NCBI GenBank assembly: GCA_017617445.1
Contig: JAFZWE010000039.1
Location: forward strand, 1 to 35,379
Length of the DNA stretch: 35,379 nt
Direction: 5' to 3'
Source: Bacteroidales bacterium
GTDB taxonomy: Bacteria; Bacteroidota; Bacteroidia; Bacteroidales; WCHB1-69
The stretch's first letter is position 1. The number at the start of each line of letters is the position of its first letter. This document shows, in pieces, positions 24,839 through 30,739 of this stretch. A program made the position numbers and the translations under genes. The notes below the pieces were generated by a model that saw nothing but the letters and a program-made list of their open reading frames with translations, ran no database searches and was not told where the DNA came from.

Positions 24839-25402
24839 ATGATTCAGCGGAAACATACCAAGGCGGCAAGGCGCACTCCCCGGTGCCTTGCCGCTGCCAT
24901 TTTGAGCCTGTTCCTGTGGATGGGAACGGCTGCGGCGCAGGGGATTCAGGAACCGGAGATGGTGTTCGTGGCGGGCGGCAGCTTCACCATGGGCTGCACC
25001 TTCGAGCAGGGAAGCGACTGCGCCAGCGACGAGAAACCGTCGCAGGAGGTGCAGCTTACGGGCTTCGCCATCGCCAAATATGAAGTGACACAAGCCCTCT
25101 GGAAACAGGTGATGGGCAACAACCCCTCCCGCTTCAAGGGCGACAGTCTGCCTGTGGAGAACGTGACATGGGACGACGTGCAGATTTTCTTGCAGCGGCT
25201 GAATGCCAAAACCGGCAAGAACTACCGTCTGCCCACCGAGGCGGAGTGGGAGTATGCCGCAAGGGGCGGCCAGCAGAGCCGTCAGACCATGTTCGCCGGC
25301 GGCTCCGAGCTGGAGACGGTGGCCTGGTGTTCCTCCAATGCGGAGAACTCCACCCACAATGGGGCACAAGGCAGCCCAACGAACTCGGGCTGTACGACAT
25401 GA
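24839..25402 (+). pseudogene. SUMF1/FGE-domain secreted protein, 5' part before a frameshift
   Basis: This frame gives a signal peptide with a basic N-terminus (cleavage after TAAAQ) and then a formylglycine-generating-enzyme-like (SUMF1, PF03781) domain: EMVFVAGGSFTMGCTFEQGS, YEVTQALWKQVMGNNPSRF, NVTWDDVQIFLQRLN, YRLPTEAEWEYAARGG. After NAENSTHNG it runs into nonsense and stops at 25402. The true continuation (GTRQPNELGLYDMSGNVWEW) is in the next frame from 25363. One missing base near 25360-25364 (a GGGG run) would restore the gene. Together the halves would make about 585 residues. It may be a real pseudogene or an indel error. Confidence 0.8.
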
Positions 25403-26595
25403 GCGGCAACGTGTGGGAGTGGTGCAGCGACTACTACGGGCAGTACCCCTCCGACAAGCAGACCAATCCGACGGGTGCCAAGAAGGGAACCGCCCGCATT
25501 GTACGCGGCGGCTGCTATGCCGCCATCGGACGGCAGTGCCGTGTGGCATCCCGCAAGAGTTTGTATCAAGGAGGCAAGGACTACATGACCGGCTTCCGCC
25601 TTGCCATGGACGATGACCGTGAGGCACGTGCCGCAGCCGCAGCACAGCAGGCCGAGCAGGAGCGTATTGCGGCTGAAAAGGCCGCTGCTGATGCTGCCAA
25701 ACAAGCAGAACAGGATCGCATTGCCGCAGAGAAAAAAGCAGAACAGGATCGGATAGTTGAGGAGAAAAAGGCGGAACAGGATCGTATTGCCGCCGAAAAG
25801 GCTGCCGAGGCCGCTGCCAAACAGGCGGAGCAGGAGCGCATCGCCGCCGAGAAAAAGGCGGAACAGGATCGTATTGCCGCCGAAAAGGCTGCCGAGACCG
25901 CTGCCAAACAAGCAGAACAGGATCGCATTGCCGCAGAGAAAAAAGCAGAACAGGATCGGATAGTTGAGGAGAAAAAGGCGAGGCAGAATCGGATAAACGC
26001 TGAGAAATCTGCCGAACAGCAACAATTGACGGAGGATAGGCGAAATCGTCAGGAGGAGCAGCAACGCAGGGCACAGCACCGCCGCGACTCCATCAACGCC
26101 CTGCCGTGGAACACCTTCTTTACGGTGAACACTGCCATATCGCCTATCCCGCAGTTCTCCTATGGGTTCAAGGTAGGACAGGTGAAGGTGCTCGGCTGGT
26201 ACTTCAGTGCGATGACCAACTTTCACTTCAAGGGTGCATTCAACCCTCTGGAAGAGAATAAATACTACGTACTGACAGGCAAGCAGAGAGCCACCAAGTT
26301 CTCAGCATTGGCCGGATTGGTAGTTCGGCCATGTCAGCCGCTCTCTATCCATATTGGTGCGGGCTTCGGCTACCGTGCCCTCACCCTCGAAACGGAGACG
26401 GGCTGGTACAATCTGCCCAAGCGCACCTACTATGGTGTGGACGCCTCCCTCGGCATCATGCTCCATTTCAAAGGGGTGGCCATCTCCGCCGAAGCGGTCT
26501 ATACCACTTGCGACTTCAACCACAGCGAAATAAAACCCCTGAGCCGATTGGAAGGCAAACTTGGCATAGGCTTCTTCCTTCCAAATAAACGGTGA
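25363..26595 (+). CDS. SUMF1 remainder, coiled-coil repeats and C-terminal barrel-like domain (3' part)
   Basis: This part continues the gene from 24839 in another frame. It holds the end of the SUMF1 domain (MSGNVWEWCSDYYGQYPSD, ARIVRGGCYAAIGRQCRVAS, TGFRLAMDDD). About 150 residues of charged coiled coil follow, built from 11-residue units such as AEQDRIAAEKK, TolA-like in look. The end is a beta-rich domain of about 165 residues (WNTFFTVNTAISPIPQFSYG, LSIHIGAGFGYRALTLETET, closing GKLGIGFFLPNKR) that reads like a small outer-membrane barrel with an aromatic strand end. The two Cys in the SUMF1 end do not align with the catalytic pair of true FGE (GGSYxCxxxYC), so formylglycine formation is unlikely. 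A barrel carrying a periplasm-spanning helix and a globular SUMF1 domain is an inference. Confidence 0.75.
   Translation, partial: GTRQPNELGLYDMSGNVWEWCSDYYGQYPSDKQTNPTGAKKGTARIVRGGCYAAIGRQCRVASRKSLYQGGKDYMTGFRLAMDDDREARAAAAAQQAEQERIAAEKAAADAAKQAEQDRIAAEKKAEQDRIVEEKKAEQDRIAAEKAAEAAAKQAEQERIAAEKKAEQDRIAAEKAAETAAKQAEQDRIAAEKKAEQDRIVEEKKARQNRINAEKSAEQQQLTEDRRNRQEEQQRRAQHRRDSINALPWNTFFTVNTAISPIPQFSYGFKVGQVKVLGWYFSAMTNFHFKGAFNPLEENKYYVLTGKQRATKFSALAGLVVRPCQPLSIHIGAGFGYRALTLETETGWYNLPKRTYYGVDASLGIMLHFKGVAISAEAVYTTCDFNHSEIKPLSRLEGKLGIGFFLPNKR
25693..25980 (+). repeat. In-gene coiled-coil repeats with an exact 81-bp duplication
   Basis: The coiled-coil stretch is built from near-identical 33-bp units. 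An 81-bp block at 25693-25773 recurs without a single change at 25900-25980, 207 bp (69 codons) away and in frame. This indicates recent duplication or gene conversion inside the gene. Confidence 0.85.
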
Positions 26596-27525: not shown

Positions 27526-27761
27526 TTCATGGATTTAACAAGAGGAATTATGAAAAAAATATTGAGCATATTGACCTTTATGGTGATGACCGTGACGCTG
27601 TTGGCCCAGACCACCCTCACCTTTGTGGGCAGAGACCGCACGGGCAACGACTACGTGCGGCTGAGCAGCGTGTCGGTGTACGACCTCGACCAATTGTGGC
27701 ACCAGATCATCGAATATCCCGACACCACGCTGGTGCTGTATGTGAATGGCACCGTTGGTGT

Positions 27762-27791
27762 TGCAGAGATGCAAAATTTTGCATCTCTGCA
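27762..27791. repeat. Perfect 30-bp palindrome inside coding sequence
   Basis: The left arm TGCAGAGATGCAAAA is followed directly by its exact reverse complement. It is read in frame as EMQNFASLQ in the FISUMP protein. It shares the AGAGAYG...CRTCTCT layout with the palindrome at 28091-28118. Confidence 0.9.
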
Positions 27792-27900
27792 GATGCAGAA
27801 CAACCCCAACCCGTTCGACGGCGCCACCGATGTGATATTGTGCACCCCGTATGCGGGTGATGTGACGATGGAAATTGCGGATATGAACGGCCATATTGTA

Positions 27901-27961
27901 GACGCACTGCGTGCGTCCGCAATCAGGCACGCACAGCGTCCGTCCGCAATCAGGCACGCAC
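27901..27961. repeat. Hairpin plus 27-bp tandem repeat at the frame break
   Basis: GACGCAC (27901-27907) and GTGCGTC (27911-27917) form a perfect 7-bp hairpin. A longer 14-bp stem with two mismatches pairs 27901-27914 with 27927-27940. The 20-bp core GTCCGCAATCAGGCACGCAC occurs twice with a 27-bp offset (27915 and 27942), read as two QSGTH motifs in the downstream frame. The frameshift of the FISUMP gene must lie between about 27902 and 27955. Confidence 0.8.
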
Positions 27962-30739
27962 CAATTCCGCCTTACCCTGTCCGCCCCCGGCACCTACGTA
28001 TTGACCGCCCGCCAAAACGGCCGGACGGTTTCCGTGAAAATGGTGAATGCGGGTAATGGCGGTGGGGACGGTATTGAATATGTTGGATCCGTAGAGACGA
28101 TGTGCACATCGTCTCTACAATTGAAATCCAACACCCGCGGCGACGGCCATTACCCGTTCCACAATGGCGACAGGATGCGTTACACCGGTTATGCCGTGGT
28201 GGATGATGTGGAAATAGAAAGCGAGACGGTGGAGAAGGCGCAGAACGGCAGCGAGACCATCCCGTTGAAATTCGACGTGGCCCGCCCGGAGGTGGTGACC
28301 AATGGTGCCACCAATGTTGCCGCCACTGCCGCCATGCTGCACGGTGAGGTGACTGCCGACAACAATGCCAATGTGACGGAGAGAGGGTTCTGCTACGGCA
28401 CCGCCCCAAATCCCACGTACAGCAGCAGCCCACGGGTGGAGGCCGGCGACGGCTTGGGGACTTTCGATGCCACCTTAAACGGGTTGGCGGCTGCCACCAC
28501 CTACTACACCCGCGCATACGCCAAGAATGCGGTGGGGGTGAGCTATGGTGCCAACAAGTCCTTCCACACCAACGACACTTTGCCGGTGGTCACCACTGCC
28601 GAACCTTCTAATATTTCCGCCACCACATTCACTTCTGGCGGCGATGTGCTTGTGCTGAACAGCAACAGTCTGACCGCTCGCGGCATTTGCTGGAACACCA
28701 CCGGCGCTCCCACCATTGCCGACAGCCACACCACCCAAAGTGGCGGCTTGGGCAGTTTTACATCCAATGTTACGGGCTTGGAGTGCGGCACCACCTACTA
28801 TGTGCGGGCGTACGCCACCAACAGCGTGGGCACGGCGTATGGCGAGGAGTATAGCGTGACCACCACACAAGAACTGGCACAGGTTGTTACAAGCAATGTG
28901 TCAAGCATTACTGACAACACAGCCGTATGCAGCGGCGAGGTTCCTTACGATGGCTGCAGCGAGGTAACCGCCCGTGGCATATGCTGGAGCACAGAACAAA
29001 ATCCGACCATTGCCGACAGCCACACCACAGACGGCAGCGGTTTGGGAGATTTTACCAGCCAATTGTCTGGATTAAATTATGCCACCACCTACTATGTACG
29101 GGCATACGCCACCAACGGTGTGGGCACGGTATACGGTGTGGAGTTGAGTTTCACAACCCAACCGATTCTGCCGACCGTAACCACAGCTACAGCCACTGAT
29201 ATTACAGCCACCACCTTCACTTGCGGTGGCGATGTAACTAATGATGGTGGTGCAGAAGTTACCGCCCGTGGCATCTGCTGGAGTATCGAGTCAAATCCTA
29301 CCATTGCTGATAGTTACACCACCGATGGTGATGGAACGGGAGATTTCATCAGCAATGTGAATGGACTTTCCTGCGGCACCATCTACTACGTGCGGGCGTA
29401 TGCCACCAATAGCGTGGGTACAGCGTATGGGGAGGTGTATAGTGTGACTACATTGCCACCAACTGTTCCTGATGTAGTACTTTCTTCTGCCAACATATAC
29501 AATGGATTGAATATAGCGACACAGGCAGAAGTGTTAACCGAAAATTGTTCAGCAGTAACCGAACGCGGTGTGTGCTGGAGCACATCCCACAATCCCACTT
29601 TAGAAGACAGCCACACAGTGAATGGAGAGGGTATAGGAGCGTTTAATGACACATTGACCAACTTGGAGATAGCCACCAACTACTATATTCGAGCCTATGC
29701 TACCAACGAGTTAGGGACAGCGTATAGCGAAGAAGCGCAAGTCGTCACACCTGATTATCCTACAGTTACCACTAGCTCTGTTACAAACATCACTGCTGCA
29801 ACCGCTACCTCCGGCGGCAACGTAATCTCTGACGGTGGGGCAACCGTTACGGCAAGAGGTGTTTGTTGGAGCACTGCTCCGAATCCTACAATCGCCGACA
29901 GCCACACCACCGACGGCAACGGTACGGGTAGTTTCACAAGCAGCCTCACGGGACTGACAGCCAATACCACCTACTATGTGCGGGCATACGCCACCAATAG
30001 CGTGGGTACGGCATACGGAAATGAGGTTAGTTTCACCACAGAAGAATCTGCCACGGGCCAGGACGGACAACCCTGTCCGGACGCTGCTACCCTCACCGAC
30101 CGCGACGGCAACACCTACAACACGGTGCTGATAGGCAGCCAGTGTTGGATGAAGGAGAACCTGCGCACAACGAAGTATGCCGACGGCACCTCCATTTCGC
30201 AGGGGAGCAGCACTTCCACCACCACGGCCTACTGGTACTATCCCAACAACGATGCTACCAACAAACCCACTTATGGTTTGCTGTACAACTGGAAGGCGGT
30301 GATGCGCAACTCATCCTCCTCTTCCGCCAACCCCAGCGGAGTGCAGGGTATCTGCCCCACAGGGTGGCATGTACCGAGCGATGCAGAATTTACTCAGCTA
30401 ACTGACTATGTAAGTAGCCAGAGCCAGTACGTGTGCGGAAGCGACAACACCTACATTGCCAAGGCATTGGCGGGCACCACGGGTTGGAGCAGCAGCACCG
30501 GTACCTGTTGCGTAGGCAACACGCCCAGCCAGAACAACTCCACCGGCTTCAGTGCGCTGCCTGCCGGCGCCTACGACGGCAGCTACTACAGATTCGGCAT
30601 CAACGCCTACTTTTGGAGCGCTGCCGAGTACGACAGCTCCAACGCGTGGCTATGCCGCTTGAGCTACAGTACCGCCTACGTCTACCGCGGCAACGGCAGT
30701 AAGACCTACGGTTATTCGGTCCGGTGTTTGCGCGATTAA
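27911..30739 (+). CDS. FISUMP/Fn3-like repeat surface protein, main part (3' of frameshift)
   Basis: This 942-codon frame opens at a GTG (27911) and carries most of the protein begun at 27550. After a beta-rich N-terminal remainder (THQFRLTLSAPGTYVLTARQ, HYPFHNGDRMRYTGYAVVDD) there are six Fn3/Ig-like repeats of about 97 residues, each with TARGICWST-like, PTIADSHTTDG-like and TTYYVRAYATNSVGTAYG-like motifs. The last 230 residues are a FISUMP domain (Fibrobacter succinogenes major paralogous domain, TIGR02145): YNTVLIGSQCWMKENLRTTK, YGLLYNWKAVM, GICPTGWHVPSDAEF, YFWSAAEYDSSNAW, closing GYSVRCLRD. It is a secreted or surface protein of unknown ligand; the repeats probably hold the end domain away from the cell. 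Without the N-terminal signal it would not be exported, so the frameshift should inactivate it unless bypassed. Confidence 0.82.
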   Translation: MRPQSGTHSVRPQSGTHQFRLTLSAPGTYVLTARQNGRTVSVKMVNAGNGGGDGIEYVGSVETMCTSSLQLKSNTRGDGHYPFHNGDRMRYTGYAVVDDVEIESETVEKAQNGSETIPLKFDVARPEVVTNGATNVAATAAMLHGEVTADNNANVTERGFCYGTAPNPTYSSSPRVEAGDGLGTFDATLNGLAAATTYYTRAYAKNAVGVSYGANKSFHTNDTLPVVTTAEPSNISATTFTSGGDVLVLNSNSLTARGICWNTTGAPTIADSHTTQSGGLGSFTSNVTGLECGTTYYVRAYATNSVGTAYGEEYSVTTTQELAQVVTSNVSSITDNTAVCSGEVPYDGCSEVTARGICWSTEQNPTIADSHTTDGSGLGDFTSQLSGLNYATTYYVRAYATNGVGTVYGVELSFTTQPILPTVTTATATDITATTFTCGGDVTNDGGAEVTARGICWSIESNPTIADSYTTDGDGTGDFISNVNGLSCGTIYYVRAYATNSVGTAYGEVYSVTTLPPTVPDVVLSSANIYNGLNIATQAEVLTENCSAVTERGVCWSTSHNPTLEDSHTVNGEGIGAFNDTLTNLEIATNYYIRAYATNELGTAYSEEAQVVTPDYPTVTTSSVTNITAATATSGGNVISDGGATVTARGVCWSTAPNPTIADSHTTDGNGTGSFTSSLTGLTANTTYYVRAYATNSVGTAYGNEVSFTTEESATGQDGQPCPDAATLTDRDGNTYNTVLIGSQCWMKENLRTTKYADGTSISQGSSTSTTTAYWYYPNNDATNKPTYGLLYNWKAVMRNSSSSSANPSGVQGICPTGWHVPSDAEFTQLTDYVSSQSQYVCGSDNTYIAKALAGTTGWSSSTGTCCVGNTPSQNNSTGFSALPAGAYDGSYYRFGINAYFWSAAEYDSSNAWLCRLSYSTAYVYRGNGSKTYGYSVRCLRD
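28091..28118. repeat. Perfect 28-bp palindrome inside coding sequence
   Basis: The left arm GTAGAGACGATGTG is followed directly by its exact reverse complement. It reads in frame as VETMCTSSL between EYVGS and QLKSNTRG. I recall GTAGAGACG-type palindromes as frequent interspersed repeats in Bacteroidota genomes. Confidence 0.9.
28280..30050 (+). repeat. Six tandem Fn3-like coding repeats of about 290 bp
   Basis: Six repeats start near 28286, 28582, 28876, 29170, 29464 and 29758. Each encodes a domain with ARGxCWST and YYVRAYATNxxGT. Repeats 2, 3, 4 and 6 are closest; repeat 5 has diverged most. All are in one frame. Confidence 0.85.

Follow-up and report, generated by a model that had tools for sequence, protein, structure and literature searches.

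Palindromes translated in frame in a Bacteroidales FISUMP gene are best read as double-foot REPs, probably exchanged in place among relatives

How does a single protein-coding gene come to hold two perfect palindromes with a repeat block between them, and what are these elements? The question is raised by a 35,379-nucleotide stretch of a Bacteroidales bacterium (assembly GCA_017617445.1, contig JAFZWE010000039.1; hereafter the window), in which a gene for a FISUMP protein is interrupted in this way. An earlier note, made from the letters alone, had taken the three blocks for insertions similar to the Rickettsia palindromic elements and possibly members of a new family. In our analysis, the palindromes are best read as double-foot repetitive extragenic palindromes (REPs) of a REP-associated tyrosine transposase (RAYT) close to group 4, that is, TnpAREP subclass 2.4. 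Such REPs, linked to RAYT genes in relatives, were in all likelihood seated in tolerant spots of genes and replaced there one by another. The features of the gene are as follows.

27550..30739, plus strand: FISUMP gene whose reading frame breaks at the middle block, with one open reading frame (ORF) running to 28056 and another covering 27911-30739
27762..27791, no strand: site A, double-foot-like REP with the variant feet GCAG/CTGC and the core CAAAATTTTG; in frame, in the linker N-terminal to the domain of the next line
27792..28050, plus strand: domain like the type A sorting domain (Por_Secre_tail) of the type IX secretion system (T9SS); limits approximate, N-terminal/internal in the protein, split by the loss of frame, assigned by homology to paralogue L082
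27898..27955, plus strand: site B block, which contains a 27-bp tandem duplication and is similar to a canonical single-foot GTAG REP; length off frame
28091..28118, no strand: site C, double-foot REP GTAG-N20-CTAC with the core ATGTGCACAT; in frame, in the linker C-terminal to the domain
30125..30733, plus strand: FISUMP (Fib_succ_major) domain, residues 739-941 of the second ORF

Both palindromes, of 30 bp at site A and 28 bp at site C, are perfect, as the earlier note had said, and no other 28-mer of the window reaches 12 of 14 pairs. Their gap-free perfect arms of 15 and 14 nt were unmatched in 60 dinucleotide shuffles (maximum 11, mean 7.75), and the AGAGAYG..CRTCTCT core that they share occurs twice in the window and in none of 100 shuffles. 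Each is translated in phase with the ORF that holds it, as EMQNFASLQ at A and VETMCTSSL at C, and palindromes are translated in the paralogues too. The middle block consists of a 27-bp unit duplicated in tandem (27902-27928 and 27929-27955, 93% identical), and it does coincide with the loss of frame: the first ORF stops at 28056 and the remainder of the gene runs on in another frame, which starts inside the block at 27911. Paralogues with an uninterrupted frame were found in the genus. The second ORF matched Fib_succ_major (PF09603, E 3.8e-38) and TIGR02145 (E 2.1e-35), and the first 117 residues of the gene, searched alone, matched no family in either of the two libraries used.

The elements proved to be dispersed and multi-copy. 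The AGAGAYG..CRTCTCT pattern gave 10 matches in the genome of origin and one for the reversed control; nine of the matches are of 24 nt and one, which may not belong, of 21 nt. Twelve congeners contained 7-141 matches per genome (reversed-pattern controls 0-9), and 32 of the 41 genomes examined had at least one. The 28-mer ending in GTAG..CTAC was present in 107, 49, 46, and 50 copies in four rich congeners, with none in the controls. A scan of named genomes returned at least 118 stretches with a palindrome, those listed being 64 from Bacteroidota, 31 from Cyanobacteriota, three unplaced, and others scattered. Around the listed copies of congeners G003 and G001, 40 stretches held 64 palindromes. 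We judged eight to lie inside convincing genes (L166, L168, L169, L178, two in L185, L186, and one in the RAYT gene of L183); the others were mainly intergenic, and decayed forms were common. The 28-mer pattern was also seen in 109 viral-contig stretches (loci L441-L520), in which a scan for RAYT genes gave no match among the matches listed.

Double-foot REPs of TnpAREP subclass 2.4/RAYT group 4 have been described in Bacteroidetes and Cyanobacteria, with the foot rule 5' GT[AG]G/3' C[TC]AC, the RAYT motifs NH[IFV]H and YIxNNP, and in-frame REP copies both beside the tnpAREP genes and inside them, there mostly between the HuH and Y motifs (Quentin et al. 2018, PMC6006769). Site C carries both such feet at the ends of one hairpin and site A does not. 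The unpaired terminal GTAG of the GTAG REP superfamily is absent from the two window palindromes, in which the GTAG pairs with CTAC. The idea of a new family was dropped in favor of this known class.

A RAYT gene that contains the palindrome or is flanked by it was found in congeners G001 and G012 and in relatives. Among the named loci, palindromes were found within genes that bear PNHxH, a motif of RAYTs. A profile built from nine palindrome-containing genes (YI..NP type) detected a RAYT gene at C10:9374-10072 of G001 and a counterpart at C28:96077-96775 of G012, both with the CGGTGCACCA palindrome inside and on either side; RAYT genes with the palindrome inside and beside were present in named Bacteroidales as well. 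All 12 loci matched the profile at 3.5e-39 or better (seeds included by construction), the Y motif being YI..NP in six of them and YI..NV in G001, G012, and four others. In 10 of the 12, an inner palindrome separates the HxH motif from the Y motif; in L437 it precedes HxH, and L332 is considered below. Wherever inner and flanking copies occur together (seven loci, two of them the G001/G012 counterparts), the inner core recurs in at least one flanking copy. Most of the RAYT loci had been chosen for containing the palindrome, which biases their proximity and not the agreement of the cores. In the RAYT tree, groups with a common inner core clustered (CACGGCCGTG-type, three genes; GTGCATGCAC, two; CGGTGCACCA, two); some supports were below 95, and the CACGGCCGTG-type group also includes L345, whose sole copy is a flanking TACAATCGTA. 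All 11 RAYTs scanned with the model NF047646 (REP_Tyr_transpos) gave matches, none of them weaker than E 1.3e-11. At L289:597-1235 (G097), such a RAYT gene with an inner palindrome stands upstream of a LacZ gene.

The link to a RAYT had been rejected at one point on the basis of Y1 genes found with PF01797 (18 in 10 of the 13 genus genomes, the genome of origin included). No GTAG..CTAC palindrome (arms of at least 10, one mismatch) was present at these 18 loci, and the number of Y1 genes did not follow the number of palindromes over 41 genomes (rho 0.07, p 0.67), the values for the 13 genus genomes being rho 0.53 and p 0.06. The link was later restored, and this negative means little: the G001 gene is absent from the PF01797 matches, and two of four such RAYTs had PF01797 E-values above 1e-3 (E-values for another search size). 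Nine of the 10 Y1 genes listed have a YI/YV..Q..HH motif, which places them near subclass 1.2 in the motif table of PMC6006769. One such Y1 transposase in the genome of origin (L071:1289-2605, G000:C35; YI.xQKEHH) adjoins a classical GTAG hairpin array (GTAGCGTGCATTCTGCACGC), unlike that table, which gives no REP for subclass 1.2.

Do the elements occupy the same places elsewhere? A protein search with the N-terminal part of the window gene found relatives in all 13 genus genomes. Sixty-one paralogue rows were extracted and 55 used, with the window's own row kept and six dropped solely for an early stop. The 55 paralogues contained 60 palindromes (at least 11 of 14 pairs), of which 59 fall at three places: 14 at A (the linker before NNPNPF), 24 at B (after NGRIV), and 13 at C, together with eight that the script had labelled "other" and that were moved by hand to C from the printed offsets; one lies elsewhere. 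Shuffling all 61 rows 20 times produced a mean of 1.95 palindromes and a maximum of six. The reading phase was 0 for 13 of 14 palindromes at A, 23 of 24 at B, and all 13 at C, and the two out of phase have unusual cores and may be due to chance. By the script labels, 24 of the 55 paralogues had no palindrome at A-C, a number that falls once the eight are moved. Six paralogues carried GTAG/GTGG-GGACGCA..TGCGTCC at site B; canonical single-foot GTAG REP-like contexts numbered nine in the loci at hand, six of them at paralogue site B and three elsewhere. The middle block of the window gene is a REP-like remnant at this second place.

The domain with these places is of the T9SS sorting type. In paralogue L082, it reached 34 bits with TIGR04183 (cut-off 23) and 24.7 bits with PF18962, under the cut-off of 27, and it is not C-terminal in this gene family. 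A sorting-domain profile built from 30 domains of three genomes had 93 distinct matches in the loci at hand and did not match the window sequence. Among the 93 matches, six true C-terminal T9SS domains contained a palindrome (at B in L050, L168, L186, and L190; at A in L178 and L207), and more were present in named genomes; the palindromes of these domains are shifted by whole codons. In an AlphaFold model of L082 (mean pLDDT 87), the site B peptide (residues 115-124) falls within a hairpin strand, and those of A (69-78) and C (172-181) reach into two segments of low confidence (66-73 and 177-186, respectively). A PDB fold search gave a single match at E 0.001 or better, multi-domain and not decisive. 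At site C of L095, the REP-derived peptide has grown into short tandem repeats (ETSSLQP..).

The occupants of one place are not always the same. We compared 80 nt on each side of the elements and took the closest pair per place with unlike elements. At A, L110 of G001 and L116 of G012 have a flank identity of 0.93 and differ at 7 of 28 element positions (next pair 0.82). At B, L086 of G010 differs from L097 of G006 at 8 positions (flank identity 0.89) and from L093 of G001 at 12 (0.88), and at C, L090 of G003 differs from L082 of G005 at 10 positions (0.88). Between L036 (G001) and L122 (G012), site B is entirely different and the flanks are 0.92 identical. The paired FISUMP genes are close homologues whose orthology was not established by gene order. 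Unlike elements between similar flanks support an exchange of REPs in place.

Such elements occur in other protein families too. A LacZ-type GH2 beta-galactosidase, which offers a cleaner example of exchange than the FISUMP genes, was found at E 1e-60 in 49 of 104 family genomes, in 45 of them as a single match, and its element is TTTCATGAAA in G003, AATCATGATT in G006, and CAAAATTTTG in the genome of origin, there with the same GCAG/CTGC variant feet as site A. In the loop concerned, 11 of the 30 loci examined had palindromes (at least 11 of 14 pairs) of five types at an identical offset, five had them at different offsets, and 14 were under the threshold, five of these being judged remnants and nine being without any. 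The LacZ tree joins G003 and the genome of origin as a supported sister pair (100/98), and their element types differ. At the signal-peptide end of an M28 peptidase, G003 has a palindrome and G012 a decayed form of it; the genome of origin has another sequence, possibly degenerate, and G010 and G005 are six residues shorter than G003. The LacZ loops without a palindrome are similar in length to those with one, which gives no proof of strict insertion at this loop. Relatives without palindromes do exist, as the note's view of insertions would have it, but the exchange of REP for REP is clearer. A search for empty sites by G001/G012 synteny was obscured by breaks. At L187:10101-10128 and L206, the gene order of these two genomes breaks at a RAYT-side palindrome, with about 3 kb more in G012. 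In the LacZ loop of L272, the REP-derived peptide has grown into short tandem repeats (NNHSPYGMS..).

How might such an exchange proceed? The hairpin has the feet GTAG..CTAC and the arms AGAGACG/CGTCTCT, and its inner 10 nt vary, tending to match those of RAYT-linked copies. It lies mostly between genes, and genic copies would persist if the frame stays open (GTA GAG ACG.. being read as VETxxxxSL). Eight to 10 extra or substitute residues would be tolerated in the linkers and the hairpin of T9SS-sorting-type domains, in the beta-galactosidase loop, and at the signal-peptide end. A seated REP would then be replaced at the same place by another, most likely through a RAYT or hairpin-induced repair acting on the common feet and arms and bringing in a hairpin with another core. 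We infer that a RAYT performs the exchange; the encoded peptides presumably have no function of their own. A tentative extension, which may well be wrong, is that resident REPs are exchangeable cassettes: a RAYT would recognize the seated feet and swap in its cognate hairpin without disturbing the frame, the inner 10 nt would be each RAYT's specificity code, and protein loops would be rewritten in the process. To our knowledge, the movement of a REP has never been directly seen.

The same pattern could arise without a transposase, by hairpin-templated (quasi-palindrome) correction or by ectopic gene conversion through the common arms that replaces the core, and this we regard as a serious possibility, if short of an even chance. 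From the loci at hand (mostly, not solely, of the genus), 146 palindrome contexts were taken, and 131 were left after removal of shared flanks; as the search pattern fixed the arms, the fair test of pairing is the inner 10 nt. There, all five positions were paired in 70 of the 131 contexts and four in 55, while the cores vary, as correction on a hairpin template would have it. The G006 LacZ core AATCATGATT is one compensated pair away from AATAATTATT, and intergenic copies in L157 differ in the core alone between flanks 0.89 identical. Against this explanation, whole elements differ including the arms (GTAGAGACG.. vs GTAGGGGCG..), and each is a recurring dispersed type.

Independent insertions, in which the loops are repeatedly hit as targets or serve as tolerated spots and older copies are lost, are possible but rather doubtful. 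The codon-shifted palindromes at A and B of the true C-terminal T9SS domains, the several offsets within one LacZ loop, and the shorter M28 signal peptides of G010 and G005 would all be explained by such events. They fit poorly with the FISUMP family, in which the element starts coincide, the flanks are conserved, and site B has a palindrome in 24 of 55 paralogues and the canonical-REP form in six. It is improbable that the elements are kept because variable peptides benefit surface proteins: the hosts are of secreted or surface type, and in the model, B falls in a hairpin and A and C run into linkers predicted with low confidence, but most copies are intergenic (the genic eight of 64, by our own reading, include one in a RAYT gene) and decayed forms abound. 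A homologue of the Rickettsia palindromic element, which shares in-frame translation and which the earlier note had in mind, can practically be dismissed, as those elements are about 150 bp long (PMC10969869) and the ones here measure 28-30 bp, bear GTAG feet, and in relatives are linked to a RAYT gene.

The reading we prefer, double-foot REPs linked to a RAYT in relatives and replaced one by another in place, has to face several observations that weigh against it. The GCAG/CTGC feet of site A depart from the published foot rule. The 131 contexts showed no excess of target duplications and a weak flank rule, with T at -1 in 72%. Compensated changes could come from hairpin-templated correction, and in L275/L281, the LacZ site conflicts with the tree, so the LacZ region may have recombined. 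L412 and L413 each have one flanking copy with another core in addition, and in L332, the copy precedes the likely start of the RAYT gene and was excluded as inner. With NF047646 (cut-off 80), only L414 passed among the 11 RAYTs (80.4), G001 reaching 44.6 and G012 45.1, and both of these have YIDNNV where the published subclass 2.4 has YIxNNP; membership of the RAYTs in subclass 2.4 is therefore likely and not certain. No such RAYT was found in the window or, among the loci at hand, within 1.5 kb of the 10 matches of its genome, for which a genome-wide profile search was not made. The RAYT-like transposase that the note had thought of was found with palindromes in congeners and relatives, but not beside the copies of this genome.

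Elsewhere in the window, an ORF at 25168-26595 has a long AEQDRIAAEKK-type repeat, and N-terminal to it, what may be a formylglycine-generating-enzyme-like fold.

The element class and intragenic in-frame REPs are already known (PMC6006769; Di Nocera et al. 2013, PMC3733652). As far as our searches show, the repeated occupation of a sorting-type domain at three sites, the exchange seen across a large number of relatives, and the correspondence between inner core and linked RAYT in these Bacteroidota are new: no title or abstract opening in the literature searched mentions in-place REP exchange, a search on T9SS with intragenic palindromes gave nothing, and the titles listed for GTAGAGACG were all unrelated. 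Homologues with different REPs at one in-frame spot would preserve a natural archive of one REP taking the place of another, the match of inner cores with their linked RAYTs offers a testable binding code, and the whole illustrates how such DNA enters secreted proteins in a Bacteroidota group.

Among known systems, the elements share with the double-foot REPs of PMC6006769 the GTAG..CTAC feet, the copies inside and beside the RAYT gene, and the occurrence in Bacteroidetes and Cyanobacteria. They differ in also holding fixed places in T9SS-sorting-type domains and LacZ, where they are apparently swapped in place, in the GCAG/CTGC feet of site A, and in the YIDNNV of the congeners' RAYTs. The GTAG-tagged REPs of PMC3733652 have the tag and intragenic in-frame copies in several species in common with them, and recB of two Xanthomonas species holds different REPs at about the same site; in those elements, the GTAG is unpaired, whereas the GTAG here is paired with CTAC; the block at site B comes nearer to their type. 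With the Rickettsia palindromic elements (PMC10969869), they have translated palindromes in common and differ in size, feet, host, and gene link.

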